Of a stretch of 64,000 nucleotides of DNA, positions 15,500 to 64,000 are shown piece after piece. Each line of letters opens with the position of its first letter. Positions within the stretch are counted from its first letter, which is position 1. The DNA comes from Lactiplantibacillus paraplantarum (GTDB taxonomy: Bacteria > Bacillota > Bacilli > Lactobacillales > Lactobacillaceae). The notes beneath the pieces are model-generated. The model was not told the origin of the DNA, did not search any database, and saw only the letters and a program-made list of their open reading frames with translations. Location of the stretch: the NCBI RefSeq assembly GCF_003641145.1, contig NZ_CP032744.1:2728001-2792000 (forward strand), written 5' to 3'. Made by a program: the position numbers and the translations under genes.

Positions 15500-15524
15500 A
15501 CGATATTATTACTGACAAATTACT

Positions 15525-15553
15525 AAACGACCACTTCAATGGAGTGGCCGTTT
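15525..15553 (+). terminator. Terminator of the adhesin gene
   Basis: 11-bp arms (AAACGACCACT / AGTGGCCGTTT, one mismatch) followed by TTTTGTTT, 25 bases after the stop. Confidence 0.75.
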
Positions 15554-15715
15554 TGTTTATGCTTATTACAATTACTGGAAAGTACCAACCCGACGAAAGA
15601 ATAGTATCCGCTACTTCGCTTTTCTGAATTACAGCTAGCAAGTTTACAATGTATAACGTTTCAGATTAATCAGTATCTAAGCTATAATAAAAGTATTGAA
15701 AGGAGATCAATTACT

Positions 15716-45192: not shown

Positions 45193-45405
45193 TTATTTGC
45201 CTAACTTTTCCTTACCAAGAACCTTTAACTTTTCATCAAAGTCATAGACAACTGGTTCACCAGTAGCCATTTCAAGGTCCATGATATCATCATCACTGAT
45301 TTGTTCGATGTACTTGCTTAAGGCACGTAATGAGTTACCGTGGGCAGCAATGATTACATTCTTGCCGTCTAATAACTTAGGTGCGATTTGGTCTTCCCAG
45401 AAAGG
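45193..45405 (-). pseudogene. gpmA: 3' fragment of phosphoglycerate mutase gene
   Basis: The last 70 codons of a dPGM-type phosphoglycerate mutase remain: PFWEDQIAPKLLDGKNVIIA, AAHGNSLRALSKYIEQISDD and on to KEKLGK, including the second catalytic His of AAHGNSLR. Upstream of PFWEDQ the frame reads MLTYQYLQAVSAS, which is unrelated. The RHG phosphohistidine and about 160 residues are missing. The break lies 145 bases from an IS30-type element, which probably took part in the deletion. An intact glycolytic copy must exist elsewhere. Confidence 0.85.
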
Positions 45406-45786
45406 CGAGGCGGACACCGCCTGCAAGTATTGGTACGTCAACACTTCTAAGTGTTTTCTGAAAACACCGTAGTGTCCACTTTACGTCAACTTCATCTGCC
45501 GAAATCTTATGTTAACGGCGTTTCTAGTTAATATTTAGATTTTTAAATATGGTAGATTGTAAAATTTAAGTTGAACATATTAGTGGACAGAAAAACCCAT
45601 AAAGGTCTTTAATGGTGTCACCACAACATTCCACTAGAAAGAAGGACCTTTATGGGCACCACTATTTTATCATTTGAAGACCGCGTTGTCATCGAAACAC
45701 TTCATCATGAAAAGCACTCACTTCAATATATTGCTGATTATTTAGGCTTTAGTAAAACCACTATCTTTAATGAGGTTCATCGCTTA

Positions 45787-46643: not shown

Positions 46644-47490
46644 TTAGCTGGTGAGTATCACGCAGTTAAGGCTCAAACTGACCATGAAGTTAAACTTAGT
46701 CATCGTGGTCGTAAAACCATCTTAACGACTAACCTAAAGCGATTGATTGAAGAAAAAATCAAGATTCAAAAATGGTCAATTGAACAAGTGGCTCATGTAG
46801 TTAGAATTGCCTACAAAACCATCTATAACTGGATTAATCAGGGACTACTGGATATTAATGTGACTGATTTACCTGACCATGGTATTCGTCGCAAACGAGC
46901 TAAAGAAAACCGTGGTAGTTTTAGTCATAGACGTTCCATCGAAGATCGTCCAGCTGAAATTTCTGATCGTAATACTTCAGGTCACTTCGAAGCTGATACA
47001 GTTTTATCTGGAAAACGTAAAGGTCAAGCAGTAGCTACGTTTGTCGAGCGTAAGAGTCGGCTTACCATCGTTAAACGGCTTAATGGACGAGATAGTACTT
47101 CAATGACCAAGGCTATTTTAGAATTGGCTAACCAGTTAGGAGATAATCTCAAGACCCTTACTGTTGACCATGGGAAAGAATTCGCCAACTACAATTTGAT
47201 TGAAGAACAGACCGGTGTTCAGCTGTACTTTGCGCACGCTTATTCGCCACATGAACGAGGCAGTAATGAAAATCGCAACCGAGTACTACGCCGCTTCATT
47301 CCCAAAGGTCAACCGATTGATGAGATTACCGATGATGAATTGATTCAAATTAACTGGTATTTGAATTCCCGACCACTCAAATGTTTAAATTGGCGAACAC
47401 CGATTGAGATCTTTTTGCGTAATCTGCGTTACTAAATTTGTTCAAGTTATTTCTTGCAATCTGCCTCTTATTTAAAAATTAATTTGAATT

Positions 47491-48528: not shown

Positions 48529-48529
48529 T

Positions 48530-49147
48530 TTAATATTTATTTAAACCATTTTTTAATGATTCCAGACCCTCACTTGCAATAAAATAAACTAGCACTAAAG
48601 CAGCAATTGAATCGACCCACCATAAACCAAAGAGAGCAGTTAGAATGGCGCCCAAAAGAACGGTTCCTGCCATGTAGGCGCAAGTAATATTGCACATACC
48701 ATCCTCAACTAGAGCATCGGAATTAATATTTTTACCTAAAGAACGTTTCTTAAAAGTGAAGAAAGGCATTAGTAGAACTGAAGCAATTGCGATTGAGATA
48801 CCTGAAATACTGGTATCAGCCGTTTGATGGGTGACCAAATTGAAAATTGATACGGTGATGACGTAAATTGATAGCAGTAATAATACACTACCGACGATCA
48901 AAGAAGATTTCTTTTCAGCATTTTCAATTTGTTTGACAGGAGCCTTATTGAATTCTTTTTTTAAACGCCAAATTAGAGTACTTCCAGAAATAATTTCTAA
49001 AAAGCTGTCCAAACCGAAAGCAATTAATAGAATTGATCTAGCTTTTATTCCTGAATAGAAACCAACAATAAATTCAAAGGTCATCCAAATTGTTGAAAGA
49101 TATTCTGTTTGGAGACTCTTTTTAACATAGTCTATTTTATTCTCCAT
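48530..49147 (-). CDS. CDF-like cation efflux membrane protein
   Basis: 205 residues with about six hydrophobic helices. Acidic intramembrane motifs [11 protein letters not shown] (helix 2) and [19 protein letters not shown] (helix 5) resemble the D/HxxxD zinc sites of cation diffusion facilitators, without the usual C-terminal metallochaperone-like domain. Probably exports Zn2+ or a similar cation. Start ATG 49147 has GAGG 8 bases upstream and overlaps the end of the ArsR gene by 11 bases. Stop codon immediately abuts an IS30 end. Confidence 0.8.
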
Positions 49148-49463
49148 GTTTTTTACCTCGCATAACGTGATCAGCATGTTCCAGAGTTTCATTGATAACA
49201 TCTAAAATATGAGGATCATCTAATTGATAATAGTTGGCTTTTCCTACTCGATGGGAGCTTACTAGTTGATAATTTTTGAGAAGTGCCAATTGGTGAGAGA
49301 TGACTGACTGTTCGACTCCTAATAGTTCGACAAGTTCACTGACATTCATTTCTTTTTGCTCTAAAACGTTGAGCATCTGAATTCGAGTTGGATTGCTGAG
49401 TAATTTCAGAATTTTTTGTGACTCATTTAAGAGATCAGGAGCAATGATTTTTATTTGTGACAT
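49137..49463 (-). CDS. ArsR/SmtB-family metal sensor (CzrA-like)
   Basis: 108 residues. Winged helix ([20 protein letters not shown]) with a C-terminal alpha-5 metal site DPH-x10-H-x2-H ([16 protein letters not shown]), the exact DxHx10Hx2H pattern of CzrA/SmtB zinc/cobalt sensors. Start ATG 49463 with AAAGGA upstream. Co-transcribed with the cation exporter. Should release the operator at 49473-49518 when metal is in excess. Confidence 0.9.
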
Positions 49464-49472
49464 ATTCTTTCC

Positions 49473-49518
49473 TTTACACATGTTATTTTTAACATATTCA
49501 AATCATAACATGTGTAAA
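49473..49518. promoter_or_regulatory. Candidate CzrA-type operator
   Basis: Perfect 14-bp inverted repeat TTTACACATGTTAT / ATAACATGTGTAAA with an 18-base AT-rich spacer, directly upstream of the ArsR gene. The outer arm ends exactly where the next IS30 begins, so upstream promoter sequence may have been replaced. Confidence 0.65.
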
Positions 49519-50562
49519 TGGTAGATTGCAAATTTAATCCGAATTTTTTGACAAATTGGTCAGCATGACCTGATAAGGTGTTTGCCAGTCAAGTATTTTA
49601 AGTGGTCTCTGATTAATTTCGAGTAAGGTGGTTTTCAAGCCTTGAGCACTAATGTGCTCAAAATAAGTCCCCTTAGGATAAAAATAGCGTAAGTTCCGAT
49701 TAAATCGTTCATTACTGCCGCGCTCAGCTGGCGTATAAGCATGGCAGTAATAGGTCTTAATACCGTATTGTGCTTCAAGTGATACTAGACCGCTAAACTC
49801 AGTGCCACGGTCCACCGTAAAACTATGCACCGGGCCATTAAAAGTTGCTAGAAACTTAGTTAGGGCTTCATTAACAGTTACTGCTGTCCGGTTTTTTAAT
49901 CGGTAGGCCCAAAGGAAACGTGATTTGCGATCGATTAAGGTTAATAAAACTGCCTTACTATGCCCACGAGGACCAACGACTGTATCTAGTTCAAAATCGC
50001 CGATGCGATTACGTTGATTAATCATCATGGGACGCTGTTCAATTGACCGTCCTAATGATTGATTATATTTAGAACGTTGGTCAAGGTTACGCCGTTGGCG
50101 CACGCCATGTTCAGGCAAATCATTTAAAGAAAACTCAATTTTCCCTTGATTTAACCAATTATAAATTGATTTAGTCGCTAGTTTAAATTCGTGAGCTATC
50201 ATTTCTGGTGACCAACTTAGCCGTAAATGGTTTAAAATTATTTGCCTTAATTTGTCATTCAATTTAGTCTTTCGGCCACATCGTGACCGCTTGTATTCGG
50301 CATCTGTTTGGGCCACTTCGGCCTGGTAAGGTTCACATCGAGCTAATTCATAAGAAATTGTGGCAGGTGATCGTTTTAGGCGATTGCTCATTTGGATATT
50401 GGACAGGCCTAGTTCACAAAAGGTTTCGATTTTAATTCGTTCAGAATAGGTTATACTAGACAAAAGATCAGCTCCTAAAAGATGTGTTTGTGGTAAACAC
50501 CATTTTAAGGGAAGCTGATTTTTTTTGTCCGAACAGCGTCGGATTAATTTTACAATCTACCA
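49519..50562 (-). mobile_element. IS30-family element, about 1.04 kb
   Basis: Inverted repeats TGGTAGATTGCAAATTTAAT (left) and TGGTAGATTGTAAAATTAAT (complement of right), both followed by CCGA. Contains one intact transposase. With the element at 47491-48528 it brackets the metal-efflux pair. Confidence 0.85.
49534..50463 (-). CDS. IS30-family transposase
   Basis: 309 residues, complete. HTH (LSNIQMSNRLKRSPATISYE), DDE domain (DFELDTVVGPRG, TVDRGTEF, AERGSNERFNRNLRYFYPKG). AGGAGC lies before the ATG. Same orientation as the neighbouring IS30 copy but only distantly similar. Confidence 0.9.
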   Translation of the reverse strand: MSSITYSERIKIETFCELGLSNIQMSNRLKRSPATISYELARCEPYQAEVAQTDAEYKRSRCGRKTKLNDKLRQIILNHLRLSWSPEMIAHEFKLATKSIYNWLNQGKIEFSLNDLPEHGVRQRRNLDQRSKYNQSLGRSIEQRPMMINQRNRIGDFELDTVVGPRGHSKAVLLTLIDRKSRFLWAYRLKNRTAVTVNEALTKFLATFNGPVHSFTVDRGTEFSGLVSLEAQYGIKTYYCHAYTPAERGSNERFNRNLRYFYPKGTYFEHISAQGLKTTLLEINQRPLKILDWQTPYQVMLTNLSKNSD

Positions 50563-50650: not shown

Positions 50651-51781
50651 TCACCCTTCAATCACCTTCAATACTTTTCCAGCTTCAACTTCCACCTGCT
50701 CTGGCAACAAGCCAATATAATACTTTTCAGTAATCATCACGCTTGCATGCCCTAGATACCTTGAAACGTACACCATTGAAATATTTTCATTCGCCACCAT
50801 CAAACTTGCTAGAGTGTGCCTAAACGTATGCGTACTAAACTTGGGTTCCATGCCTAGTCTGATTTGAATTTGATGATACGCAGCGTTGATGCTACTAGCC
50901 CTTGGTAGACGACCACGTTTATTCATGAGCATGAACTGATCCGGATTAGCAACACCCTCCCTAAACAAATAACGCCGCTGATAACTCATCCACTGTTCCA
51001 AGATGTGCACCACTTGCTTTGGTAAAGGAATAGTCCTCCTAGCATGTTTGGTCTTCGGTTCTTTTAAAATATTATGCTTACTGTCCCACGATTCATCTAC
51101 GGTGATGGTATTATGCAAACAATCGATGTCTTCATATTTTAGTGCCAAGCATTCCCCAACCCGTAAACCCGATTGTGAAATGATCAGCAAAGCCAACCGG
51201 TCAACATCATTAATTCTGTAATGATAGCTTAGCAGAAAGTTCCGGACCCTTTTAAAGTCATGAATCGACATAAATTTCTGATCATCACCTTTCGTGCGGC
51301 TAGGGTCCGCCACAATCCTTAAAGTGCCCGCTGCTGGATTATGGGTCAGCACACCGTCACTAACCGCATCACGCAAGCAGCTTCGTAGTTGCATGAGATC
51401 CTTCCGAATACTTTCATGGCTTAAGTTCAAACCATTTAAGTACTTCTGAATTCGATTACGAGTCAAATCCTCCAGCCGAACATCGCCTAAGCCTTGTGAA
51501 AAATGTTGATAACTGGTCCAGTAAGTGTGCATGGTATTGGCTGAAACAACTGGTTTCTTATACAATTGTACCCACTGCCAATAGTAATCAATAAAGAGCC
51601 AACGTGATTTTTCAAAGTCAGTTCCACGGTCAGCCATAATTTCCATTTGGTGAATCCAGATTCTGGCTTCAGTCATATCATTAAAGGTCTTAGTCTTTCT
51701 TTTACGCGTAGAACCAGATCCGACACTGACCTCTGCTTTATATTTGCGTCCTTTAAGTGGATTTCGATAAACCCTACTCAT
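50651..51781 (-). CDS. int: Tyrosine site-specific integrase 1
   Basis: 376 residues. An N-terminal AP2-like arm-binding part and a SAM-like core-binding domain (about 60-165) lead to a catalytic domain with all expected residues: Arg in SGLRVGE, Lys in TKHARRTIPL, HTFRH, GHAS and the nucleophile in ITEKYY. Phage/ICE type of the Tn916-like group. It overlaps the DUF1643 gene by 8 bases and is last in a long leftward gene block, so it is probably the integrase of an element extending to about 55.9 kb. No att site could be identified. Confidence 0.9.
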   Translation of the reverse strand: MSRVYRNPLKGRKYKAEVSVGSGSTRKRKTKTFNDMTEARIWIHQMEIMADRGTDFEKSRWLFIDYYWQWVQLYKKPVVSANTMHTYWTSYQHFSQGLGDVRLEDLTRNRIQKYLNGLNLSHESIRKDLMQLRSCLRDAVSDGVLTHNPAAGTLRIVADPSRTKGDDQKFMSIHDFKRVRNFLLSYHYRINDVDRLALLIISQSGLRVGECLALKYEDIDCLHNTITVDESWDSKHNILKEPKTKHARRTIPLPKQVVHILEQWMSYQRRYLFREGVANPDQFMLMNKRGRLPRASSINAAYHQIQIRLGMEPKFSTHTFRHTLASLMVANENISMVYVSRYLGHASVMITEKYYIGLLPEQVEVEAGKVLKVIEG

Positions 51782-52400
51782 TCTTAACCACCCTCATCTT
51801 TTCTTCATTAGCAACCACTTTCAATTCAGTATTTACAGGTGACTTCTCTGGCTTAGTTGTATTCTCATCAATAGTAGTCACCGGACCGAACTCCCACGGC
51901 GCATCTCTCAACGCCAATGGATGAACCTTCTTACCACCGTCATTCAGTAGCCAAAATAGTTTTCTCTGTTGCTTTTCGGCTTTACATTGATCGATATAAT
52001 CAGCGAGCCGGACTGTTGCTACTTCATACTTTGTGGATAACGACCCAGTAGCAAGGATCACTTTATCCACATGTTTAGTCGCAGCCATTAATTCTTCAAT
52101 CCCATCCGGTGCCGAAGCTTCGTCTAAACGCTTATTGCATGGCCACTTAACTTGCGCATTAAATAGGTTTGCAATCACAACACCACCAAAAGTTCCACAA
52201 TCCACAATCGCATTTCGAATCAAGATACCAGTCAAACTATCCTTCATTACAGAACCGGTCACTGGGTAATTAGCTAATACCATAACTAGTGGTTCATCCT
52301 TGTTCCAGACCCACTTCTTCCAGTAGGTGAACTCACCCTTGATCTTTTGTTCCACAGTAACGTTTATTTTCTCCATATGCTTACGGTTCACTTCGGCCAT
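51774..52400 (-). CDS. DUF1643-family protein
   Basis: 208 residues. The N-terminal two thirds match DUF1643: MVLANYPVTGSVMKDSLTGI, VVIANLFNAQVKWPCNKRLD and VILATGSLSTKYEVA. These proteins occur on phages and mobile elements; their role is not known. The C-terminal extension after WEFGP is low-complexity. The start ATG overlaps the stop of the 27-residue peptide gene (TAATG), GGAGGG 8 bases upstream. Confidence 0.75.
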   Translation of the reverse strand: MAEVNRKHMEKINVTVEQKIKGEFTYWKKWVWNKDEPLVMVLANYPVTGSVMKDSLTGILIRNAIVDCGTFGGVVIANLFNAQVKWPCNKRLDEASAPDGIEELMAATKHVDKVILATGSLSTKYEVATVRLADYIDQCKAEKQQRKLFWLLNDGGKKVHPLALRDAPWEFGPVTTIDENTTKPEKSPVNTELKVVANEEKMRVVKNE

Positions 52401-52483
52401 TATTTAATCCCTCCAACTTCATCTAATAACTTAGTGACTGCAACGACTGTTACTTCCAAAGCAACTTTTATCCACATGTTCAT
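52400..52483 (-). CDS. 27-residue hydrophobic peptide
   Basis: ATG 52483 with GGAGG 7 bases upstream encodes MNMWIKVALEVTVVAVTKLL and then DEVGGIK. Its TAA overlaps the DUF1643 ATG (TAATG), so translation is coupled. Amphipathic/hydrophobic helix with an acidic tail. It could be a membrane micropeptide or only a coupling leader. No family recognised. Confidence 0.55.
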   Translation of the reverse strand: MNMWIKVALEVTVVAVTKLLDEVGGIK

Positions 52484-52979: not shown

Positions 52980-53780
52980 TTAATCATCTGAAGTCAAAGT
53001 TAGATCGATTGTCTCACCATCACCTGCAGCCCAAATCCAGTAATCACCTTGCGTATCACCTGATCGTACATCAAAAGTATACTTGCCAGGAAAGAATCCA
53101 CTGCTTAGCTGTTGCTTAGACACACGTTGATTATCGGCATCCTTCAACTTAATTGTTACCGGACCACCACTACCGGTATAGTCTAAAACTCGGACAGGCG
53201 TCCGTCTAGTTGTTAAGTAATAACTGGTAAACATTCCCATTACTTTTTTGCTTTCAACACTGAAATCATACTTAACTTTAGTTCCAGCAACCCGTTGACC
53301 ATCAACGATAATCCGTCCCGTCTCACCTAACGAATCCCGAGAATGGTTATGAATATCTTTGACAACACTTTTGGCACCGATATCACTAAACTTCAGGTTT
53401 TGGTCATCCTTGGAGAATTGCTTCAAGAACAACTTTCCATCCTGGTTCTGTACGGCCTTCGTGATGTTACTTGCAAGTTGGTCGCGTGAGACAACTACTC
53501 GCTTTTTCATGAATAAAAATCCGGCCAACACAACCAAAACCAGTAATGCAGCTATGACAATCGTATTATTTCGCGATTTATCCTGTGAACGAGCAGGAAC
53601 ACGCGGCGTTGCTTGCTCTTCTGAATGGACCTTTTCTTCAGTATCAGTTTGGTGATTGACGACTTTCTCCACCTTATGATCAGTTTCACCCTCGTTGTCC
53701 GCATTTACCGCATGTCCACAACTAGGACAAAATTTAACCCCCGCTTTCAATTCGTATCCACAATTTGTACAATGTTTCAT
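52980..53780 (-). CDS. Zinc-ribbon single-pass membrane protein (TcaA-like layout)
   Basis: 266 residues. Zinc ribbon (HCTNCGYELKAGVKFCPSCG) is followed by an acidic linker, one transmembrane helix (about 75-93, VIAALLVLVVLAGFLFM) and an extracellular domain of about 170 residues. The order matches TcaA/YvbJ-type envelope proteins. The soluble part reads QLASNITKAVQNQDGKLFLK then QFSKDDQNLKFSD, a usual first extracellular domain of that group. ATG 53780 is preferred over the TTG at 53792 inside the ribosome site. It lies 15 bases after the third Mor-like gene. Confidence 0.75.
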   Translation of the reverse strand: MKHCTNCGYELKAGVKFCPSCGHAVNADNEGETDHKVEKVVNHQTDTEEKVHSEEQATPRVPARSQDKSRNNTIVIAALLVLVVLAGFLFMKKRVVVSRDQLASNITKAVQNQDGKLFLKQFSKDDQNLKFSDIGAKSVVKDIHNHSRDSLGETGRIIVDGQRVAGTKVKYDFSVESKKVMGMFTSYYLTTRRTPVRVLDYTGSGGPVTIKLKDADNQRVSKQQLSSGFFPGKYTFDVRSGDTQGDYWIWAAGDGETIDLTLTSDD

Positions 53781-53795
53781 TTTCTCCCACAACTC

Positions 53796-54059
53796 CTAAA
53801 CTTCTTTTGACCCCCGCCAGACCTTTTCAATCCACTGGTCAGAAAAATGATATTGTTGCGCCAACTGATGAATATTGTGACCATCACATTCTCGTTGAAC
53901 AAGCTCTTTAACCAACTTAACTCCATATAAACGTTTTGGCGCCCACATTTGGCCGCCCCGATATTGATGATAAATCAACAACATCTTTTCAGTACCAATC
54001 AATTTATCAAGCTCTTGATAAACAGGATTAAGTACTGACACATCAACATTTTCTTTCAA
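53796..54059 (-). CDS. Mor-family HTH protein, paralogue 3
   Basis: 87 residues. C-terminal Mor transcription-activator helix-turn-helix (CDGHNIHQLAQQYHFSDQWI) preceded by the conserved dimer part (LNPVYQELDKLIGTEKMLLI). Start TTG 54059 is inferred from GAGG 11 bases upstream and from alignment with its paralogue at 54573 (KENVDVSVL against NENVDVEAL); longer frames to 54092 exist. One of three related genes alternating with two related membrane genes. Confidence 0.75.
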   Translation of the reverse strand: MKENVDVSVLNPVYQELDKLIGTEKMLLIYHQYRGGQMWAPKRLYGVKLVKELVQRECDGHNIHQLAQQYHFSDQWIEKVWRGSKEV

Positions 54060-54138
54060 TGGCACACACACCTCAACATCTAATGATGACATCAGAAAAA
54101 GTGGTCACTGCTGAAATAGTAATCACCACTTATCCCAT

Positions 54139-54537
54139 CTATTCAAAATCGTGTTGTCCAGTATCACTCTCTACCTGGGCCTTGTTATCAATATGATAAC
54201 CATTAGCTAGCAATTGATTCTTGAACCAAGTATCAAACATGAAACCATACCAAATAGCGCCTGCGAGATTGATGACCCACGCCAACCCTCTGCCAAGAGT
54301 AAGTTCTGCAATAAAGTTGATTAAAATCAGTGCAACAAAAGGAACTGCTGCCTTTTTGAGAAAATCTTTGGTCTTATATTTTTGACTAAACAACGCATAA
54401 AAGAACGTGAAAATAAAACCTAGCCAATTAAATGACCCCTTTACTTGTTTAGTGACTGTTCGGCCATCCACTTCTTTCACCAATGTCATATTTTGCTTTA
54501 CCCGATTATTAAAATCAAACCAATCTGAAAAATCCAT
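54139..54537 (-). CDS. Small integral membrane protein, paralogue 2 (DUF2628-like)
   Basis: 132 residues. A cytosolic N-terminus (MDFSDWFDFNNRVKQ) is followed by FNWLGFIFTFFYALFSQKYK TKDF, then two hydrophobic helices and a C-terminal WFKNQLLANGYH. The same layout recurs in the gene at 54856-55233 (shared FFxTxFYAxFSxKYKTK and NTWxxNQLxxNGY). The FxxFWxxxYxL-type pattern recalls DUF2628. GGAGG 9 bases before the ATG. Function unknown. Confidence 0.7.
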   Translation of the reverse strand: MDFSDWFDFNNRVKQNMTLVKEVDGRTVTKQVKGSFNWLGFIFTFFYALFSQKYKTKDFLKKAAVPFVALILINFIAELTLGRGLAWVINLAGAIWYGFMFDTWFKNQLLANGYHIDNKAQVESDTGQHDFE

Positions 54538-54572
54538 GTTTACATTCCTCCAAAATATTTTTTCAAAATCAT

Positions 54573-54830
54573 CTACTGCTTTTCTTTTAAGACCTTCACC
54601 ACCCAGCGCTGAGAATAACCATACTTATTCGCTAATTCATAGGTGTTTTGACCGTTATACTGCTGCAACACATGGTCAGCGGCTAAATGTCGGTCATACA
54701 AGTGAATTGGAATCGTAACCTGCATACCTCGATATTGTTCAAAGACTTTTAACATACCCTCAACGCCAATTAGCTCGCTGATGCCACGATAAAACGAATG
54801 CAGTGCTTCCACGTCTACATTTTCATTCAT
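54573..54830 (-). CDS. Mor-family HTH protein, paralogue 2
   Basis: 85 residues, Mor-type: dimer part (LHSFYRGISELIGVEGMLKV) and HTH (QNTYELANKYGYSQRWVVKV). Start ATG 54830 with GGGAGG 6 bases upstream; an in-frame start at 54863 overlaps the preceding gene. It directly follows membrane paralogue 1 (25 bases), and membrane paralogue 2 follows it. Confidence 0.78.
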   Translation of the reverse strand: MNENVDVEALHSFYRGISELIGVEGMLKVFEQYRGMQVTIPIHLYDRHLAADHVLQQYNGQNTYELANKYGYSQRWVVKVLKEKQ

Positions 54831-54855
54831 GAATAACCTCCCTTGTTCTACCCAG

Positions 54856-55233
54856 TTACTCAAATTCTAATGGTGCATGCTTATGATCTTCTTGATATCC
54901 ATTCTTGATCAGTTGATTATAATACCAAGTATTGAACATTAGCCCAATATAAATGGCTTCAACCAAATTCCATAACCAATCTGAATTATCAAAAAGATAC
55001 GATAGCCCACAGTTGATCAAAATCAATATAAAAACGTTGACAAACACCTTGGTAACAAATCCTTTAGTCTTATACTTCTTACTGAACATTGCATAAAACA
55101 CTGTAAAGAAGAACGCCCACCAACAGAAACCACCAAGGACTGTTTTCTCAATCGCCTTGCCATTAACTTGTTTTGACATGATTTTGGTGCCAATAATACG
55201 TTTATTAACGGCAAATAAATCTGATAAATCCAC
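54856..55233 (-). CDS. Small integral membrane protein, paralogue 1 (DUF2628-like)
   Basis: 125 residues with two or three hydrophobic helices. Shared with the 54139 gene: VLGGFCWWAFFFTVFYAMFS then KKYKTKGF, and FNTWYYNQLIKNGYQED. GTG start at 55233, GGGGG 10 bases upstream. The gene pair order membrane-Mor is repeated twice, so a duplication of the pair is likely. Confidence 0.7.
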   Translation of the reverse strand: MDLSDLFAVNKRIIGTKIMSKQVNGKAIEKTVLGGFCWWAFFFTVFYAMFSKKYKTKGFVTKVFVNVFILILINCGLSYLFDNSDWLWNLVEAIYIGLMFNTWYYNQLIKNGYQEDHKHAPLEFE

Positions 55234-55390
55234 TCCAAACTCGCCCCCTATGACATTGCTACCAATTATAATTAATTCGTTAACATTGCCACAGTCACAC
55301 TTATCATGACAAAGTACATGTCATTCCTACTTATACTTAACACCAGAGATCTCGTTTGCACTGAACTTAATAGCAAATGTACACTTTTCC

Positions 55391-55651
55391 TCAATGTTCC
55401 ATATTTCGTAGTATGGCGCGGGTCCATCTCTCTGAATAACCATATAGTCGGGTTAATTCGGCCTGATTTGTACCATCATATCGTTTAACAATTTGCTGCT
55501 TTGCGGCCTCACGATTATATAAATGCAATGGTAAAATTACTTGTACACCTCGATAATACTCAAAAATTTTTACCATGTTCTTGCTGCCTACCAACTCATC
55601 CAATTGCCGATAGATTGGCTGAAGCGCTTCAATATCCATTGGTTCTACCAT
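55391..55651 (-). CDS. Mor-family HTH protein, paralogue 1
   Basis: 86 residues. Dimer part LQPIYRQLDELVGSKNMVKI and HTH (TNQAELTRLYGYSERWTRAI). Start ATG 55651 with GGGGG 7 bases upstream. First of the three Mor-like genes in transcription order. Mor proteins activate middle transcription in phage Mu; in Gram-positive elements such genes are found with unknown targets. Confidence 0.78.
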   Translation of the reverse strand: MVEPMDIEALQPIYRQLDELVGSKNMVKIFEYYRGVQVILPLHLYNREAAKQQIVKRYDGTNQAELTRLYGYSERWTRAILRNMEH

Positions 55652-55655
55652 TCCA

Positions 55656-55940
55656 CTACCCCCTATTACCGCTAGAAGAATCATTGAGACAAAATGTCCC
55701 AAGCCCATAAAGACTTTTTTGCTTCAAATCAACTACTGCATAGCCTGACCAATCTTCAAAAATAAACATGTGCACGATAACCCACTCAGGTAACGTTTCT
55801 GGCTCAATGCCTGGGTACTCAATTTCATCCTTGGATAGTCGGATACTCTCAATCCCGACTTGATCAGGTGTCACTGGTTCGCCAAGATTGTCGCTAAACA
55901 ACTCACAAATCCGACCCAGAATTTCATCAAAAGACACCAT
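55656..55940 (-). CDS. Hypothetical acidic protein, first gene of the Mor block
   Basis: 94 residues beginning MVSFDEILGRICELFSDNLG, mixed alpha/beta, acidic, no membrane helix and no motif that I recognise (later ETLPEWVIVHMFIFEDWSGY). Start ATG 55940 with GAAGGG 10 bases upstream. It lies 4 bases before Mor paralogue 1 and probably opens the operon running to integrase 1. Confidence 0.55.
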   Translation of the reverse strand: MVSFDEILGRICELFSDNLGEPVTPDQVGIESIRLSKDEIEYPGIEPETLPEWVIVHMFIFEDWSGYAVVDLKQKSLYGLGTFCLNDSSSGNRG

Positions 55941-56180
55941 TGCTTTGACACCCTTCCTTCCGCTTTTGTACATCATCACCAATTACTATCCGAATACAAA
56001 ACATTATCATCACCTCACGAATACATAAAAATAGAGATAGCGTTCGGCAACAATTGCCATTACACTATCTCCTCAAGATAATAATATATATTTATAAATC
56101 CGGTTAAATCGACTGCATAAATCTACAGAAACAGTATTTACACCCCCATGCCCCCCTAATCCCCCTAAAACAGCAAAAAA

Positions 56181-56203
56181 GGCACGCCCTCAATGGACGT
56201 GCC
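56181..56203 (-). terminator. Terminator of the polymerase-integrase 2 operon
   Basis: 9-bp arms GGCACGCCC / GGACGTGCC (one mismatch) with a T6 run on the minus strand, 7 bases past the integrase 2 stop. The stretch 55984-56180 also holds a weaker hairpin around GAGATAG/CTATCTC (about 56033-56073) and a C-rich patch (about 56140-56167). Confidence 0.8.
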
Positions 56204-56209
56204 TACTAT

Positions 56210-57313
56210 TTATAAAGCGATTGTATTTAAAGCAACCGCATCTTCTTTTTGATGTTTGCCAGGAAGCACCCGTAAATAATACCGCTGTGTTATAGCCGGG
56301 TTACTATGACCCAGCAACCGAGAAACATAAGTTACGTCAAGTTCAGGTTGTGCTATCAAAAGAGATGCAACCGTGTGGCGTAACGCATGCGGGCTGTGAA
56401 TAGCCTTTATACCTAGGTGTCTCTGTAATGTATGAAATGCCGAATTAATACTACTAGCCTTAGGCAGACGTTCCTCTTCGTTGGCAAAGACGAAATCGGA
56501 TTCACATTGCGCATCGTCGTGCCATGAAACGAGCAATCGCAAAACGTCATCGACTAGTGGGATGGTCCGAACAGCACTAACAGTTTTAGTTGTCTTAATC
56601 TTTCGTGCTGCCGAATCATAACTTCGTTGAATTTTAATTCGATGCTGGTCAAAATCGATGTCAAACCATTTTAGTCCAATTGCCTCGCCAACTCGAACAC
56701 CAGTGGCACTAATAACAGCTAAAATTAGGTAATTAGCATCCTTCAATCCATACGATCGGTTGAATAAATGACGTCGAACTTTCAAGAAGTCGTTAATTGA
56801 TAGGTATTTATCTCTGTCTGTCCGGGAATGCTTTTCGTTACCTGTAATCACAACTCCGTGCATCAAGTTTCGCTGGATCAATCCATCGTACTGAGCATTT
56901 GCTAAGCACGCTTTTACTTGGATAGCATGCTTACGACACGTTTCCTTCGAGTACAACTGTCCAAGTTGATTAAACACACTTTGTAACAAGGTCCTATTGA
57001 GCTGTACCAGTTTCACAGTTGAAATCAAGGCCTTCATATGCTGATATGTTAACTTATACGTAATCTTAGTGGCCGCTGAAACTATTGGTGCCTTAAAAAG
57101 CTTGTACCAAGTCTTAAAATAGTCAACAAAATAACAATTTCGAATCATACGCATATTACCACTACGGTTAGCTTGCTCTTGGTCTAGTAGCCAAGTCTGA
57201 GCTAAACGCCTGCTGGTAATAGTCTTAGTATGTCGGATTCTAGATGGTCCACTTCCAGATGTGTATTGAGCACGATACCGGCCATCTAAAAGTTTTTTTA
57301 TTGTTCCTGCCAT
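56210..57313 (-). CDS. int: Tyrosine site-specific integrase 2
   Basis: 367 residues. Arm-binding N-terminus, core-binding domain (about 60-160), catalytic domain with Arg in TGVRVGEAIGL, Lys in KTVSAVRTIPL region, HALRH, GHSN and ITQRYY. Same broad family as integrase 1 but only distantly similar. Its ATG overlaps the stop of the HTH gene (TAATG). It is last in an operon with a DNA polymerase and a helicase, so it should mobilise that unit. Confidence 0.9.
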   Translation of the reverse strand: MAGTIKKLLDGRYRAQYTSGSGPSRIRHTKTITSRRLAQTWLLDQEQANRSGNMRMIRNCYFVDYFKTWYKLFKAPIVSAATKITYKLTYQHMKALISTVKLVQLNRTLLQSVFNQLGQLYSKETCRKHAIQVKACLANAQYDGLIQRNLMHGVVITGNEKHSRTDRDKYLSINDFLKVRRHLFNRSYGLKDANYLILAVISATGVRVGEAIGLKWFDIDFDQHRIKIQRSYDSAARKIKTTKTVSAVRTIPLVDDVLRLLVSWHDDAQCESDFVFANEEERLPKASSINSAFHTLQRHLGIKAIHSPHALRHTVASLLIAQPELDVTYVSRLLGHSNPAITQRYYLRVLPGKHQKEDAVALNTIAL

Positions 57314-57630
57314 TACTCATCACTCCAATCGTCGCTTGGAATTTCTTTATACCAATGAACGGCCTTGTCCTTAAGGTAGGCAAATACGTCTCCTTGTCTA
57401 AGCCGTACTTGATGTGAGTTTCCTACTAATATCCGGGGAAACCCCGGGTCTAATAGCCATAGATCAATCGTTTCACGTGCAACCCCTAATAATTTTGCTG
57501 TCGCCGGAATCGACATTAATCTATTATATTTAGCAGAATCCATACCAAATACTCGGCAAAGCTCAAGGTATCGATCAATATAAGGCTGTAATTGGCTTAA
57601 TTCGTTTTGAACGTCTTCAGATATTGCCAT
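57313..57630 (-). CDS. Excisionase-like helix-turn-helix protein
   Basis: 105 residues. A MerR/excisionase-type HTH lies in the middle (SIPATAKLLGVARETIDLWL, then LLDPGFPRILVGNSHQVRLR), as in HTH_17-type proteins that direct excision or bind element ends. Acidic N-terminal helix and a WYKEIPSDDW tail. Overlaps helicase and integrase genes by one base on each side (TAATG), so expression is coupled. Confidence 0.75.
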   Translation of the reverse strand: MAISEDVQNELSQLQPYIDRYLELCRVFGMDSAKYNRLMSIPATAKLLGVARETIDLWLLDPGFPRILVGNSHQVRLRQGDVFAYLKDKAVHWYKEIPSDDWSDE

Positions 57631-59240
57631 TAGGCATCCTCCCGAACTTTATACCCACTTAAACCTTTAACGTGTCCATGAGTATTAACAATCGGGGCTG
57701 GTTGTCCCCACAACGACTGAAAGGACTCACTTAACTTTTTAGGAAAGACATGCGAGTTTGTCGTTCCCATATCCGAAATTTCCTCACGTTTCAGCCAATT
57801 ACCATACTGTTCGCGTAGATATTTAATGGTTAGCGTACTACCAGGTGCTTCTACCAAACAAGCCTTTACAAATCGTTCCACCGGTCGACTATATAGCATG
57901 TAGTGCTCCTTAGCCTCACGCATCGAATCTGAAATTGTGAAATTAAAATTATTCTCTCGCAGTTCACTAAGCCCATTCAAAGCCCAGTTAAGAACACCTG
58001 GAAGTTCATCAGTCAGCTTATTTTCTAAATCTACATCGATCTTATCTAGCGGGATCTGAACTTGAAATGGTAAAATGTTTAACCGTCGTGAAAATCCATC
58101 CGAAGTATCCGTAGTCACTGGCATATTATTAGTCATAAAGATAAATTTAATTTTCAAGATGGTCGTATATTGAGCCTGATTTTTAGCATTGATTGTCACC
58201 GCATCCCCGCTGCAAATTGCCTTAATCTCAGCTGTATCAAAACTGACCGCCTGCCCTTCACTGGAAAGGTTGGCACGCTTATTAACCAATGGGGCTAGAC
58301 CAAAATCAGTTGCCAATGATTCAATTTTACTGCTCGAGATATTTAGTTTACCAAGCAACTTTTTTACTAAATTCAGGTAAACTGACTTACCATTACGACC
58401 ATCACCCTTGATGACTAGAAACGCATTGGCTTTAAACGATGGTTCCAATAAATACCCAGTGTATTGCTGTAGGAAGGCTTGATCTTTGGGGTCTGGCAAG
58501 ACATCGTCTAAAAATTGATTAAACAATGGACACGTTGCAGTTGGATCAAATTGAACGTCTGAGTGCATTCGCGTTAACTTCTGAGGGCTAACTGCTCCGC
58601 CATCTTGCAAAGTAACCAAGTCAATCAACCGGGTGCCAAACGCAGCGTAATCTACGTCAAATTTATCGCCATCAATTGGTTTTAAGGCACGACTCAATAG
58701 TGCGACTAAGTGCGTGTCCAATCCCTGCGACCAGCTATCCGGCACAATCGCGTTAGTAATAACGGTAATAATTTTCCCCAACACTTGATTTTTCTGGGCT
58801 TCTTCATAGACACACTTTGTCCAATTATATATGAGCAACGTATTGTCATTAGCAGTCTGCTTTAAATTAAGTGCCCGATTTAAAAACTTGGAAAGTCCCT
58901 CACGATTGACTTTTTCTTTGCCTTCATCAAAAATCACATCAGTATTCTCCCGTAATAATTGAACACCAAAACTAGTAACAGTTTGACGCAATGTCATATT
59001 GGGCGCATCCTTAACAGTCGCATGTTCGGTTTTCTGATAATTCACCCAGCATTGCCGGATGAACCCACTTAAGAACCCAAATTGTTGCCAGTATGCTTCA
59101 ATGTTAATATTACTAACCGAAAAACGGGCAATTTTCAACTGATCCCCTAGCCGCTCTGAGCCTTTTAATTTTAATCTGGGGTTAATATAACTTGCCAAGT
59201 AAGACAAATTCTGGTTATCTAAGGATAACGTCTGTTTCAT
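57630..59240 (-). CDS. SF3-type (D5/P4-like) replication helicase
   Basis: 536 residues. Superfamily 3 AAA+ helicase domain: Walker A GDGRNGKS (about 277-284), motif B region NKRANLSSEG, motif C KIKFIFMTNNMP, arginine finger region DGFSRRLNILPF. The N-terminal half is helical (D5_N-like) and has no clear archaeo-eukaryotic primase motif. A C-terminal winged-helix part follows. It probably unwinds the element origin. Overlaps neighbours by TAATG junctions. Confidence 0.85.
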   Translation of the reverse strand: MKQTLSLDNQNLSYLASYINPRLKLKGSERLGDQLKIARFSVSNINIEAYWQQFGFLSGFIRQCWVNYQKTEHATVKDAPNMTLRQTVTSFGVQLLRENTDVIFDEGKEKVNREGLSKFLNRALNLKQTANDNTLLIYNWTKCVYEEAQKNQVLGKIITVITNAIVPDSWSQGLDTHLVALLSRALKPIDGDKFDVDYAAFGTRLIDLVTLQDGGAVSPQKLTRMHSDVQFDPTATCPLFNQFLDDVLPDPKDQAFLQQYTGYLLEPSFKANAFLVIKGDGRNGKSVYLNLVKKLLGKLNISSSKIESLATDFGLAPLVNKRANLSSEGQAVSFDTAEIKAICSGDAVTINAKNQAQYTTILKIKFIFMTNNMPVTTDTSDGFSRRLNILPFQVQIPLDKIDVDLENKLTDELPGVLNWALNGLSELRENNFNFTISDSMREAKEHYMLYSRPVERFVKACLVEAPGSTLTIKYLREQYGNWLKREEISDMGTTNSHVFPKKLSESFQSLWGQPAPIVNTHGHVKGLSGYKVREDA

Positions 59241-59734
59241 TAGTTATCACCGTCCTTATCGAATACACCCTTAAATAAGTCGTCGTCAGGTTCATCTGAC
59301 CTTTTCTTCACATCTTCTAGCAAGCTTCCCTGACCGGAACCTTGACTTAACTTATCAGTCTGTTTTACTTTTAGTAAGCGTTGCCGGTAAGTTTCTGAGT
59401 CCCACTTCCAGTCATGCGTGTGCCAAAACTTACGCTCATTAATTGCATCGTGGGTTAGCCTTACAGAACAAGGCATATTGGACCAAATTTCACTTTCAAG
59501 CTTTAAATCGTCTTGAACATTTTGGATAGACGCCACCAATTTTTCGAAACGATCATCTCCATCAACGAAGAAGCGATCTCTGATTTGGTGTCCGTCAATT
59601 ACAAATTCCGTATCCAGCCATTTCGGATGATCCGGATGATCCTGATCAAATTCAAAATTAATTTTGTTCAAAACAGCATTCGAATAAATGCCCTCTTTTA
59701 ATGTTTGAAACCGTGATAAATCAATAATTGTCAT
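59240..59734 (-). CDS. Unknown protein between polymerase and helicase
   Basis: 164 residues, acidic, beta-rich N-terminal two thirds (FEFDQDHPDHPKWLDTEFVI, RDRFFVDGDDRFEKLVASIQ) and a charged, low-complexity tail (KKRSDEPDDDLFKGVFDKDG). No family recognised. Position between replication genes and the acidic tail would suit an SSB-like or accessory replication factor; this is only inference. AGGAGG 8 bases before the ATG, 14-base overlap with the polymerase gene. Confidence 0.65.
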   Translation of the reverse strand: MTIIDLSRFQTLKEGIYSNAVLNKINFEFDQDHPDHPKWLDTEFVIDGHQIRDRFFVDGDDRFEKLVASIQNVQDDLKLESEIWSNMPCSVRLTHDAINERKFWHTHDWKWDSETYRQRLLKVKQTDKLSQGSGQGSLLEDVKKRSDEPDDDLFKGVFDKDGDN

Positions 59735-61007
59735 AATAATTTCCTCCTAATTGTTGTGTTGATAACATGTTTTTTAGTGGTAATGTTAAATCCAACTTAT
59801 TTGCCGCCATCATAATCGCTACAATGACACATCGGCGGGTTTCATCAACATCACCTTCGTTGCATAAGCATACAAGTTCATCGTGTATAACATTAACAAC
59901 ATTAACCTTATTGCTAAGCTCTACTAACGTTTGTTTCATTAATAGTGCTGTAGCTGATTGGACTGGCAAGTTTTGTTTGGTTGATGATGGCAGCCACTTC
60001 GTACCTATTCTTGGCTGAAATTTTGTAGGTTTAAGCCCATAGTATAGAACTCTTCCTTGCCGGAATCGCTGTAATAACGCAGTAACTTCAGGATAAAGTG
60101 ACTGTAAAATACTCATTGGTTGGCTCCGAACTAGAAGCCCACTCTTAGCCACAATTTTATCTAATCGGCTAACACCGGCTCCATATAGCATGGCATAAAT
60201 TAATGTCTTAGCCAGTTTACGCATGGCCGGACTAACATTGGACTGGTCGGTCTCAAACAGCTTCGAGGCAAAGTAGCTGTGCAGGTCAATCCCATTCTCA
60301 AATTGTTCAATTAGTAGTTTACAATTCGATGCCCCCGCAAGTAGTCTTAGTTCAATCTGATTAGTATCAAAGCTAACATACATTTTTGGAGAACTACGTC
60401 TGGATGGAGCAACGAAGTAATTTCTCATGGCCTTTGGTAACGCAGTCATCGCCATATCATGAGCAGTAAACCGCCCTGAATACGATGAGTAAGGATTCCA
60501 AGTTCCCGATAACTTTACTATTCCATTGTGATCCTGAAGACTAGCTAAACGATCTCGATACCGTTCTAACAAACTATCCTGATTACGTTTTTTTAGTAGT
60601 AACCTAATTACTGGATCATCATGCCGATGTTCCACTAACCAGCTCATACTAAGAGACGCAATGTCAATGCCTTTTAGCCTAGCATAGTTACGAATTTGAA
60701 CGTTGTTTTCGACTGAGTAAATACCAATCCCTAGGTATTCTTGCAACTCAGATAGAACCATTTGCCGCGTATCTATCCATGGCTTTAAACCATTCTGTAA
60801 CCAAGCGGCAAAATCTAAGTCTATAGACTTAAATTTTAGCGATCTAATTAATGGCGAAACTCGAAGTTGAACTTCCAATGCCATCCCCATCCCCATTGAA
60901 TTTAGGTAAGTAGTCCAATCGAATTTACGCTGCTTGGTCATTATCCAACTTTCAGGTAGAAAGGATAGACGCTTCAATTCATCACAAGACACAAAGTCTT
61001 CATTCAT
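59721..61007 (-). CDS. Minimal family A DNA polymerase
   Basis: 428 residues covering only the polymerase domain of Pol I; no 5' or 3' nuclease domain fits this length. Motif A VSFDTNQIELRLLAG keeps catalytic Asp and Glu. Motif B RKLAKTLIYAMLYG keeps Arg, Lys and Tyr-Gly, with Tyr at the sugar-discrimination position (as in T7). Motif C is VIHDELV. The palm and fingers are therefore intact. Start ATG 61007 has AAAGGG 9 bases upstream; the longer frame from 61058 has no ribosome site. First gene of the five-gene replication-integration operon. Confidence 0.85.
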   Translation of the reverse strand: MNEDFVSCDELKRLSFLPESWIMTKQRKFDWTTYLNSMGMGMALEVQLRVSPLIRSLKFKSIDLDFAAWLQNGLKPWIDTRQMVLSELQEYLGIGIYSVENNVQIRNYARLKGIDIASLSMSWLVEHRHDDPVIRLLLKKRNQDSLLERYRDRLASLQDHNGIVKLSGTWNPYSSYSGRFTAHDMAMTALPKAMRNYFVAPSRRSSPKMYVSFDTNQIELRLLAGASNCKLLIEQFENGIDLHSYFASKLFETDQSNVSPAMRKLAKTLIYAMLYGAGVSRLDKIVAKSGLLVRSQPMSILQSLYPEVTALLQRFRQGRVLYYGLKPTKFQPRIGTKWLPSSTKQNLPVQSATALLMKQTLVELSNKVNVVNVIHDELVCLCNEGDVDETRRCVIVAIMMAANKLDLTLPLKNMLSTQQLGGNYYDNY

Positions 61008-61091
61008 GTCAATCAGCCCTTTCTTAGGTAACCAATATTTATAAAGATTATGCTTCATGGTATAGACTACAGATAGCCCGACACAAGCTCT

Positions 61092-61150: not shown

Positions 61151-61387
61151 CAACTCTTATGGCATTAGGTTGCACCAAATATTACAGTTAGTTATGTTGA
61201 ATTTAGCATAAGCCCCATTCACCATCCTTTCCATTTGGCCCACGGCACACTCAATACTTTTAATACGTCAACTTATTAATATTACAACCCCTGCTTGAAT
61301 TGCAAATGGCCTACTAACTTGCTGACGTTTTTTAATATAACTCACACTGGCGACTTTGCCATTCCCTAAAAAAAAGTAAAAAAAACG

Positions 61388-61413
61388 CGAATCACTCATA
61401 ACAGTGATTCGCC
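61388..61413 (-). terminator. Terminator of the 405-residue gene
   Basis: 10-bp perfect arms GCGAATCACT / AGTGATTCGC with T8 on the minus strand, 12 bases past the stop at 61425. Confidence 0.85.
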
Positions 61414-61424
61414 ACATGAAATTT

Positions 61425-62642
61425 TTATAACTTACTTGATTCATTACCAGAAGTATGACCATAAATGCCAAACATAATAGTACTTAAATCATCCTTATCG
61501 TAATCAAAGTCCTTCACTTTTTCTGTTTTTAGCACCATGTTCTCATACTTTTTCACTTTTTTTACTTCACTATCTAACGCATGTTTACGTTTTACCTCAG
61601 TGTCTTTAAGTACGCTATCTAACATTTCTGGCACCCCATCACTTTGCACTAGTTCATTTACTTCTAAGTAAATTTGATCTTGTACTCTCTTGTTAGCCTC
61701 AAAAAAGTAATCCATATCTTCTCTTAACTTTTCAAGAACCAAAATGGCCACTAAGGGATCAACTTCTATCAGTTTCTTAACTCGCTCAACTAATCTAACT
61801 TTAAAATCACATAATATACTACTTGCTAATTTTACTAGTGCAATATGATATGTGCTTTCAAACATTATTTGTGTTATCTCTGGTGACTTCATTTGCATCG
61901 GTAATAATCCAACTGTCTTACCATTAATTTTTTTTGATGTGTTTGTTAATTTATGAAGACACTTTATTAGTTCGTCTAACATGTTAGGATTTGTTATAAT
62001 CTCTTTTTTAGTCTTATTCAAATACTTTTGGTAATCAGTACCTTGAATAGCAAACATGATTGCCAGATATGTTTGTTTATAAACATTCAATTGTGCTTCT
62101 TTGTTCATAGTCTTTTCATTTTTACTGTCTTTTACACCACTTCTAGAGAGATCATACATTTTCTTTGTGGTTAACCCAACAAAAGATTCTATTTCAGAGT
62201 CAAATTTTTTTATAAAATTAAAAAATTCAGCCTTATTTTTCACTTCACGATCTTGCATTTGCATTTCATTATACGTACTTAATGTTGAATAATATATTTT
62301 TTCACTAGCCTTCTTAAGAACTCCATCTTTAGAAATGCGCTTTTCCTTAATATCTATTTCTAAATATTCAGCAAATTGTTGCAAAATTTCGTTTACTTCA
62401 ACATGTAATCTATTACCTATGCTTTTTTCTTTGATTTTTTTAACAAATGCTTGTTTTGTAACTACCGTCCAGCCTTTACTATTTTCCTGCATATCCATAA
62501 ATATAGCGAGTACTTTTCTCAGTCTATCTGCATCTGTAGCACCAGCTTTACTCTCATCTGCAAAAATATGCTGTAACAAACTAAGTTTCTCTTTGATGTA
62601 ATGCGCATTTTTTTCATCTATCATTAACAGGTTATCAAACAT
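61425..62642 (-). CDS. 405-residue helical protein of unknown function
   Basis: Almost entirely predicted helix, Lys/Glu/Asp-rich, no membrane segment, no recognised motif. It begins MFDNLLMIDEKNAHYIKEKL and contains a very charged C-terminal part (DTEVKRKHALDSEVKKVKKY). The gene is clearly more AT-rich than its neighbours, which suggests transfer. GGTGG lies 4 bases before the ATG. It is monocistronic with its own terminator, between a replication/integration unit and a HerA-like ATPase, a setting common for cargo or defence genes. Function is unknown. Confidence 0.7.
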   Translation of the reverse strand: MFDNLLMIDEKNAHYIKEKLSLLQHIFADESKAGATDADRLRKVLAIFMDMQENSKGWTVVTKQAFVKKIKEKSIGNRLHVEVNEILQQFAEYLEIDIKEKRISKDGVLKKASEKIYYSTLSTYNEMQMQDREVKNKAEFFNFIKKFDSEIESFVGLTTKKMYDLSRSGVKDSKNEKTMNKEAQLNVYKQTYLAIMFAIQGTDYQKYLNKTKKEIITNPNMLDELIKCLHKLTNTSKKINGKTVGLLPMQMKSPEITQIMFESTYHIALVKLASSILCDFKVRLVERVKKLIEVDPLVAILVLEKLREDMDYFFEANKRVQDQIYLEVNELVQSDGVPEMLDSVLKDTEVKRKHALDSEVKKVKKYENMVLKTEKVKDFDYDKDDLSTIMFGIYGHTSGNESSKL

Positions 62643-63431: not shown

Positions 63432-64000
63432 CTAGCTTAAACGTGATGCTAAATCATCAATTTTCACAACGTTCACTTGTTTAGCTAAGTCGCCTTTTTC
63501 AACTAATCCTGGTCCGCTGACGACACACTGACCTTTCTTCAAAGTTGTCAATTCTTGTTCAAATTTATTCTGCTCAACTCGATCGGAGCTTAGGATTTTT
63601 GCAACTGCTTTAGTTTGACTCTCGGGAGGCAAGAAATGAACCTGCTCTGCAGCGTTATAAATTGCATCCACTTCGCCTTTAATACTACTCAAAGACTGTG
63701 TCGCAAATAATCCTGAGAACCCAAATTTCCGACCTTCTCGTAGGATCTTAACAGTTGGAGAATCCTTATCAAAGTTTAAATTCTGAACCTCGTCTAAAAA
63801 GATTGGATAAATTAACTTTTTGTCAGAATTAAGCTTGGCATAATTAATAAGATCCCATAATAGAAATTCAATCATTGCATTTTGTAATGAAGCTGGATAA
63901 CCGCTTAGTTGAATAATATTAGTTTTCCCTGTCGTTCCAAAATAATTTGACCAGTCAAAATTCTCTTTGTATGTGAACGGATCTCTCATCAGTAACGCTT
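63432..64000 (-). CDS. HerA/FtsK-type ATPase, C-terminal part (DptH-like), runs off right edge
   Basis: The last about 189 residues of a larger protein; the frame stays open to the window edge. Walker B-like IFLDEVQNL, then KILREGRKFGFSGLFATQSL, a helicase sensor stretch usual in HerA-type ATPases, and FLPPESQTKAVAKIL. The pattern resembles the C-terminus of DptH, the helicase of phosphorothioate-dependent restriction (DptFGH), but the N-terminus and partners are out of view. A conjugation ATPase is the alternative. Confidence 0.65.
   Translation of the reverse strand, partial: ALLMRDPFTYKENFDWSNYFGTTGKTNIIQLSGYPASLQNAMIEFLLWDLINYAKLNSDKKLIYPIFLDEVQNLNFDKDSPTVKILREGRKFGFSGLFATQSLSSIKGEVDAIYNAAEQVHFLPPESQTKAVAKILSSDRVEQNKFEQELTTLKKGQCVVSGPGLVEKGDLAKQVNVVKIDDLASRLS

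Follow-up and report, generated by a model that had tools for sequence, protein, structure and literature searches.

In the staphylococcal cassette chromosome (SCC) element SCCmec, one of the cassettes that disseminate methicillin resistance, the A-family DNA polymerase CCPol makes primers de novo together with its partner MP, and the helicase Cch2 binds repeats beside its own gene (Bebel 2020, PMC7581432). Without MP, CCPol is reported to behave as an ordinary primer-extending polymerase (PMC7581432). Such sets have been named PolA-SSB primases, after a single-stranded-DNA-binding protein (SSB); of the 17 examples given, 16 have an SSB with a predicted oligonucleotide/oligosaccharide-binding (OB) fold (Rice 2023, PMC10061031). 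Table 1 of that paper lists, in 18 rows, 16 large serine recombinases, one Y recombinase and one IS66 transposase; its main text contains none of the terms 'Lactobacill', 'gpmA' or 'DUF1643', and the purpose of SCC-type replication is left open where it is treated there (PMC10061031). Here, we describe an operon of Lactiplantibacillus paraplantarum, located in a stretch of 64,000 nucleotides (hereafter the window; positions 2728001-2792000 in the 3.37-Mb genome). The operon consists of five open reading frames (ORFs) on the minus strand (61007-56210), all of which were located by ORF listing, and is probably the replication and recombination module of an SCC-like island integrated at gpmA, of the PolA-SSB primase-helicase type.

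The first gene of the operon encodes the polymerase (Pol; coordinates of all features are given in the table). Its ORF extends from 59721 to 61058 and yields 445 residues if translation starts at the ATG at 61058, or 428 residues from the ATG at 61007, a length also found in seven of the nine nearest foreign homologues (P0002-P0010). Pol overlaps the gene for a 164-residue protein by 14 nt, and the remaining three junctions all read TAATG. This agrees with the initial annotation, which had proposed a Pol-led operon with overlapping stop and start codons. The annotation had further described a nuclease-free, 428-residue Pol I-type enzyme with three catalytic motifs, and this also held. Motifs A (DTNQIELR at 214), B (RKLAKTLIYAMLYG at 263) and C (HDE at 375) are intact, and Pfam recognised DNA_pol_A alone (118 bits), with no nuclease domain, proofreading included. 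Across 32 aligned sequences, D214, R263, K267, Y275, G276, D376 and E377 are invariant, and H375 is conserved in at least 90%. The AlphaFold2 model of Pol (mean predicted local distance difference test score, pLDDT, 92.7) has the apicoplast, Taq and Bst polymerases as its nearest solved structures; about 40 residues precede the helix opening the Pol I large-fragment-like part, with the start of the domain judged by eye.

The relationship of Pol to other A-family polymerases was assessed by a tree of 47 sequences (IQ-TREE, LG+G4, 300 columns). One clade of 24 members, with an ultrafast bootstrap value of 100, unites Pol and its lactobacillar relatives with the polymerases of two SCC-type loci (L051 and L052); it also holds Listeria booriae P0024, Staphylococcus haemolyticus P0023, P0021 and P0022. 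Outside the clade are the three phage and two plasmid polymerases sampled, the host PolA and 17 others. Within it, branching is weak (values 39 and 63) and branches are long. The phylogeny against phage and plasmid PolA, which the initial annotation had proposed as a check, thus groups Pol with SCC-type polymerases and apart from those sampled. Pol is 32-34%, the helicase 33-34% and the DUF1643 protein of the island 27-30% identical to their counterparts in L051 and L052, each over the aligned part. L051 encodes Pol, a 160-residue ORF and a DUF5906 helicase; Pfam confirmed that it also has two large serine recombinases as well as SAUGI, DUF960 and DUF1643. The same gene order in L052 was established by gene comparison, Pfam confirmation applying to L051 alone. 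PMC7581432 gives this gene set as the SCC core, and it has likewise been reported for an island of Staphylococcus brunensis (PMC10581047). One relative of Pol, P0010, is a mosaic: its N-terminal part is identical to P0002 in all 124 aligned residues, and the remainder to P0011 in 301 of 304. The N-terminal part, proposed to be the usual contact to the SSB (Rice 2023, PMC10061031), may therefore have been exchanged between islands, the alternative being a chimeric assembly of P0010.

The 164-residue protein had been described as an unknown acidic protein. The gene is present as annotated, and 'unknown' can be replaced by a predicted OB-fold SSB. The AlphaFold2 model adopts an OB fold, and the nearest structures in fold searches, at moderate scores, include single-stranded-DNA-binding proteins; the model also resembles phage SSB and DUF669 proteins. 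Further OB-fold proteins were matched as well, including toxin B subunits; we rejected these as a functional clue, since the fold they share is a common one. A profile comparison with two SCC-type middle proteins gave no signal, a Pfam scan of 16 members of the middle-protein family gave no credible family, and an IMG/VR scan with the 164-residue protein gave no match.

The two genes assigned as a superfamily 3 (SF3) helicase and an integrase were confirmed as such. TIGR01613 (primase C-terminal, P4 family) covers helicase residues 220-487 with 168.5 bits and DUF5906 scores 63.8 bits, both above the cut-offs; IntB matches Phage_integrase with 97.3 bits and possesses the catalytic motifs. Neither Pfam nor NCBIfam revealed a primase domain in the helicase, and in longer phage primase families the protein corresponds to the inner or C-terminal part (e.g. 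451-744 of 772, PHROG). Priming must thus come from the host or from Pol-SSB. At the position assigned to an excisionase-like protein, a helix-turn-helix (HTH) protein is indeed encoded, with weak matches to its families (PHROG HTH/excisionase families, E 5e-6 to 7e-5; HTH_17, E 0.058); homologues occur at the equivalent position in the related loci L011 and L012. The island encodes a second tyrosine integrase, IntA, which also matches Phage_integrase, has the catalytic motifs, and is 36% identical to IntB and 61-64% identical to IntA of L012 and L011. No serine recombinase was found among the island ORFs scanned, both integrases being tyrosine recombinases.

The initial annotation had taken positions 56210-61007 as an integrative unit with its own minimal A-family polymerase. 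The integrative nature is supported by two integrases and by a duplication of the last 214 bp of gpmA, while the unit is larger than proposed. The duplicate is 98.6% identical to the intact gpmA, which lies at 74216-74908 on the window scale (L008 2216-2908), and its homology stops at nt 480. From this duplication, the island spans 45407 to ~74429 (window scale), about 29 kb, and hence extends beyond the end of the window; we infer a crossover at gpmA nt ~481. In the genome G258, gpmA is present once; together with 78 bp of flank, its 3' end is 99.7% identical to the displaced copy, as expected of an unoccupied site. As G258 is not colinear with the window farther downstream, it provides support rather than a clean empty site. 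A third attachment site at 52420-52434, a 15-bp exact gpmA match, was rejected because its surroundings are unlike gpmA. Taken together, the kinship of Pol, helicase and DUF1643 protein with SCC-type genes, the gene content and order, the intact motifs and the integration site are established at the sequence level.

That the operon is a module of the PolA-SSB type, carried by a gpmA island, is well supported. It combines a Pol with intact catalytic residues and absent or truncated nuclease domains, a predicted OB-fold protein in the next ORF, a D5 helicase and a 3' recombinase. Upon induction, the tyrosine integrase(s) and the HTH/Xis-like protein would excise the island at gpmA nt ~481, as suggested by the duplicated gpmA end. 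The D5/SF3 helicase would, by analogy to Cch2, recognise repeats near the integrase gene and open the DNA. The truncated Pol, bound to the OB-fold SSB that holds the single-stranded template, would synthesise DNA primers de novo and might also elongate them. Judged from CcPol-MP, Pol-SSB would stand in for the primase domain of related phage and plasmid proteins. By this analogy, a role of Pol as primase or primase-polymerase is the likelier one and our best inference.

This differs from the initial annotation, which regarded the operon as an unusual case of a self-supplied replicative polymerase. Gene content and order are those of the described PolA-SSB primase class (PMC10061031), whose SCC member primes de novo (PMC7581432); rather than an exotic phage-like replicase, the operon is a variant form of the replication kit of SCC, joined to a recombinase of another class. 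If Pol acted on its own, the host primase would supply the primers from which it copies the island after excision. The three intact catalytic motifs and the ordinary primer extension reported for CCPol alone (PMC7581432) would be compatible with this, but we consider it distinctly unlikely, since Pol has no proofreading domain, is dispensed with by related islands, and shares its operon, as in the tested SCC module, with both a helicase in which no primase domain was recognised and a predicted OB-fold SSB. Somewhat less doubtful, though still unlikely, is a function without island amplification, either in second-strand synthesis after single-stranded entry by competence or conjugation or in defence, both of which are offered as possibilities by Rice 2023 (PMC10061031). 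The ORFs scanned included none recognisable as a relaxase or conjugation gene, so that the island may enter in another way; its cargo includes DndFGH, and Pol weakly matches DRT-associated PolA in PADLOC (43 bits). However, such a match is to be expected of an A-family polymerase, and the set forms an operon with excision and integration genes and stands beside recombinases in L011 and L012 although their cargo differs.

It is very improbable that we are dealing with a prophage remnant or a phage satellite, in which the operon would serve a degraded or helper-dependent element as its phage-type replication module. The tyrosine integrase, the Mor-like genes, the similarity of helicase, HTH protein and integrase to PHROG families, and the likeness of the middle-protein model to phage SSB and DUF669 proteins all point in this direction. 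Yet relatives of Pol in IMG/VR (13 loci) are only 21-31% identical, with none for the middle protein, and the phage tblastn matches to Pol are all below 60% identity, with 20-27% among the 30 matches listed. In line with the initial annotation, no capsid, terminase, portal or other phage structural or packaging gene was recognised by Pfam or PHROGs among the island ORFs scanned, a set that left aside several small ORFs. The annotation had named membership in a known prophage replication module as the outcome that would overturn it; the closest module instead sits in SCC genomic islands. Scans of genome contigs with Pol and P0023 as queries did not give a relative with either.

Related islands were identified in the same bacterial family. 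Of 350 genomes of the family, four have Pol (E <= 1e-40); when 398 genomes of the class were searched with a profile built from 22 polymerases, four again gave a match, the own genome being counted in both. IntA (E <= 1e-90) is more widespread, with 11 loci in 10 of the 350 genomes (own counted) and 6 of 40 genera. All 11 loci encode a protein similar to the DUF1643 protein of the window (BLAST E <= 1e-4), and nine have a displaced gpmA 3' end, matching from nt 480-484 (window, L012, L091, L093, L094, L095, L096, L097 and L100 in genome G169). In the other two, the contig ends ~180 bp past intA (L092) or offers just 3.5 kb up to its start (L011). More than one displaced gpmA fragment is found in L096 and in G169. 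Four more genomes of the genus have displaced gpmA ends, at nt 481 (L041, L042, L043) or nt 488 (L040), with no intact intA in the fetched stretches. Decayed relatives were also observed: L041 and L042 contain intA fragments near gpmA, and L099 (G038, 196-2488) retains part of a helicase as well as an integrase split over two frames.

Pol is recognisable in seven of the 11 intA loci (window, L011, L012, L092, L093, L094 in two frames, and L097); in G169, L091, L095 and L096 none was found, also not by tblastn with four different polymerases. Three of these four Pol-less loci keep a D5-type helicase preceded by a small ORF, that of L091 comprising only 298 residues. The helicase of the fourth, L096, has DUF927 with PF18662, the 'Cch helix turn helix' domain. 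Both helicase patterns of SCC are thus found again in the islands, with tyrosine in place of serine recombinases. L096 (G080, 7056-16056) contains, next to its DUF927/Cch-type helicase, two DUF1643 ORFs and three gpmA 3' fragments, which suggests tandem or repeated insertions. A second integrase is present in seven of the 11 loci (window, L011, L012, L091, L092, L093, L094), or in eight if both G169 contigs belong together; L095, L096 and L097 have a single one.

The region 3' of intB contains three tandem 9-bp units, CCCCCATGC CCCCCTAAT CCCCCTAAA (56143-56169), and is a candidate origin. The two-unit pattern CCMCCNNNYCCMCC occurs three times in the island versus 0.06 expected (at most one in 50 first-order Markov sequences), four times in L011 versus 0.0 and once in L012 versus 0.02, values whose significance the shuffles overstate as the pattern was drawn from the tested sequences. 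This pattern or the looser CCMCCNNNNCCMCC lies just 3' of the second integrase in five of nine loci (window, L011, L012, L093, L099), and the CCMCC pattern is absent there in four (L090, L091, L092, L094). Another repeat cluster is located near the gpmA end (window-scale 74033; L010 7286; L098 1233). The repeats could be binding sites of the helicase or arm sites of the integrase. Two terminator-like hairpins flank the operon; the hairpin scan counted 4 versus 3.8 in shuffles and, hence, no excess.

Features of the island and its replication operon, in window coordinates
Feature	Coordinates	Strand	Basis
Displaced gpmA 3' end (nt 480-693), distal island end; crossover region at its 45406 end	45193..45406	-	
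Insertion sequence (IS) genes between displaced gpmA end and operon	46165-46635, 46743-47435, 47506-48426, 49534-50463		
intA, tyrosine integrase, 376 aa	50651..51781	-	Phage_integrase
DUF1643 protein, 208 aa, family also in SCC core	51774..52400	-	Pfam PF07799, 32.4 bits
Zinc-ribbon protein, island-associated	52980..53792	-	Pfam zinc ribbon; homologues in L011, L012
Three Mor-like genes	53796-54092, 54573-54863, 55391-55708	-	Mor PF08765 for third
Region with three tandem 9-bp units, an AT-rich tract and a hairpin; candidate origin of replication or integrase-arm region	55983..56209	-	Prediction
Terminator-like hairpin 3' of operon	56180..56204	-	Hairpin scan
intB, tyrosine integrase, 367 aa	56210..57313	-	Phage_integrase, catalytic motifs
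HTH protein, excisionase-like, 105 aa	57313..57630	-	Weak PHROG and HTH_17 matches
D5-type SF3 helicase, 536 aa, Walker A at residue 279	57630..59240	-	TIGR01613, DUF5906
Predicted OB-fold single-stranded-DNA-binding protein, 164 aa; C-terminal tail acidic, low-confidence	59240..59734	-	AlphaFold2, fold searches
A-family DNA polymerase, CcPol-like, without nuclease domain, 428 aa	59721..61007	-	Pfam, alignment, AlphaFold2 model, tree
Terminator-like hairpin 5' of operon	61387..61412	-	Hairpin scan
405-aa protein, unknown family, inside island, between terminator-like hairpin and dndH	61425..62642	-	
dndH, C-terminal part inside window (gene to window-scale 68726)	63432..64000	-	PADLOC

The interval between the displaced gpmA end and the operon contains, apart from IS genes, a cation-efflux-like ORF, intA, the genes for the DUF1643 and zinc-ribbon proteins and three Mor-like genes. 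All three match Mor-like genes of L011 and L012, which have one each; in the window they are interleaved with small ORFs (53796-55708), an apparent tandem expansion. IS transposase ORFs, some of IS30 type, are found at window 45407-50463 and at L008:365-1386. On the other side of the operon, the 405-residue protein has no credible match in Pfam, PADLOC or NCBIfam. A conserved fourth gene 5' of Pol was considered and rejected, as this protein shows no BLASTP relation to the 334-residue gene of L012, nor does the latter to a 333-residue ORF of L048. Beyond the window follow dndH, dndG and dndF, then an IS30-like element and gpmA. PADLOC identified DndH (1015 bits), DndG (192 bits) and DndF (386 bits), so that the cargo represents the restriction half of a Dnd system (window 63432-64000, L003:11432-19999, L008:1-164). 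DndC (TIGR03183) has no match in the host genome; DndFGH standing alone has been discussed (PMC10853773). Scans for tRNA genes and Rfam families gave nothing.

Our findings extend PolA-SSB modules to lactobacilli and provide an island family that can be compared by site and gene core across six genera, mostly food-associated. Whether and to what purpose excised SCC-type elements replicate is an open question (Rice 2023, PMC10061031), which the harmless Lactiplantibacillus island, having a candidate origin and the same Pol/SSB/helicase plan, makes testable outside methicillin-resistant Staphylococcus aureus. DUF1643 and both SCC helicase types recur beside a different recombinase class, which suggests that DUF1643 works together with the replication set as its partner. 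The gpmA islands of the Lactobacillaceae may, at about even likelihood, be a tyrosine-recombinase counterpart of SCC, in which a conserved pairing has been joined to two unrelated recombination chemistries: DUF1643 with a replication set that can be swapped, be it Pol-SSB-D5 helicase, a small ORF with a D5 helicase, or a DUF927/Cch helicase. If so, replication set and DUF1643 would form the core of a wider class of replicating cassettes with exchangeable recombinase.

Tyrosine recombinases are presumably also used by the mecD islands of Macrococcus caseolyticus. As described, these resemble the island as genomic islands in relatives of SCC hosts and differ in target and cargo (PMC5341023). Among the matches listed in our literature search, which covered subscription journals and preprints thinly, we found no description of gpmA or phosphoglycerate-mutase attachment sites or of SCC-like tyrosine-recombinase islands in lactobacilli; for further papers on PolA-SSB primases, the search returned Rice 2023 alone. 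TV-Pol is, by its description, likewise an A-family polymerase of mobile elements, with a helicase encoded next to it and priming as its proposed role; the N-terminal domain that many TV-Pols have according to Rice is not evident in Pol (PMC10061031). With the PolA-SSB primases (PMC10061031) and their prototype CcPol-MP (PMC7581432), the module shares an N-terminally truncated Pol, a predicted OB-fold protein, a D5/COG3378-type helicase, a recombinase and the location on a chromosomal island. It differs in its Lactobacillaceae host, the tyrosine integrases, the gpmA target as opposed to rlmH or ssrA, and a 164-residue SSB with an acidic tail. Compared to SCC in the strict sense, DUF1643 is part of the core, whereas large serine recombinases (Ccr), SAUGI and DUF960 were not recognised in the island ORFs scanned, which did not include all small ORFs; insertion is at gpmA nt ~481 instead of the rlmH end, and the operon has an HTH/xis-like gene. 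The likeness to SCC pattern 2 (CcPol-MP-Cch2, ccr, SAUGI, DUF960, DUF1643) lies in the Pol-small ORF-helicase operon and DUF1643, that to pattern 1 (Cch) in the DUF927/Cch helicase of the related gpmA island L096, and, as in SCC, the island is inserted in the 3' part of a conserved gene and carries defence cargo.

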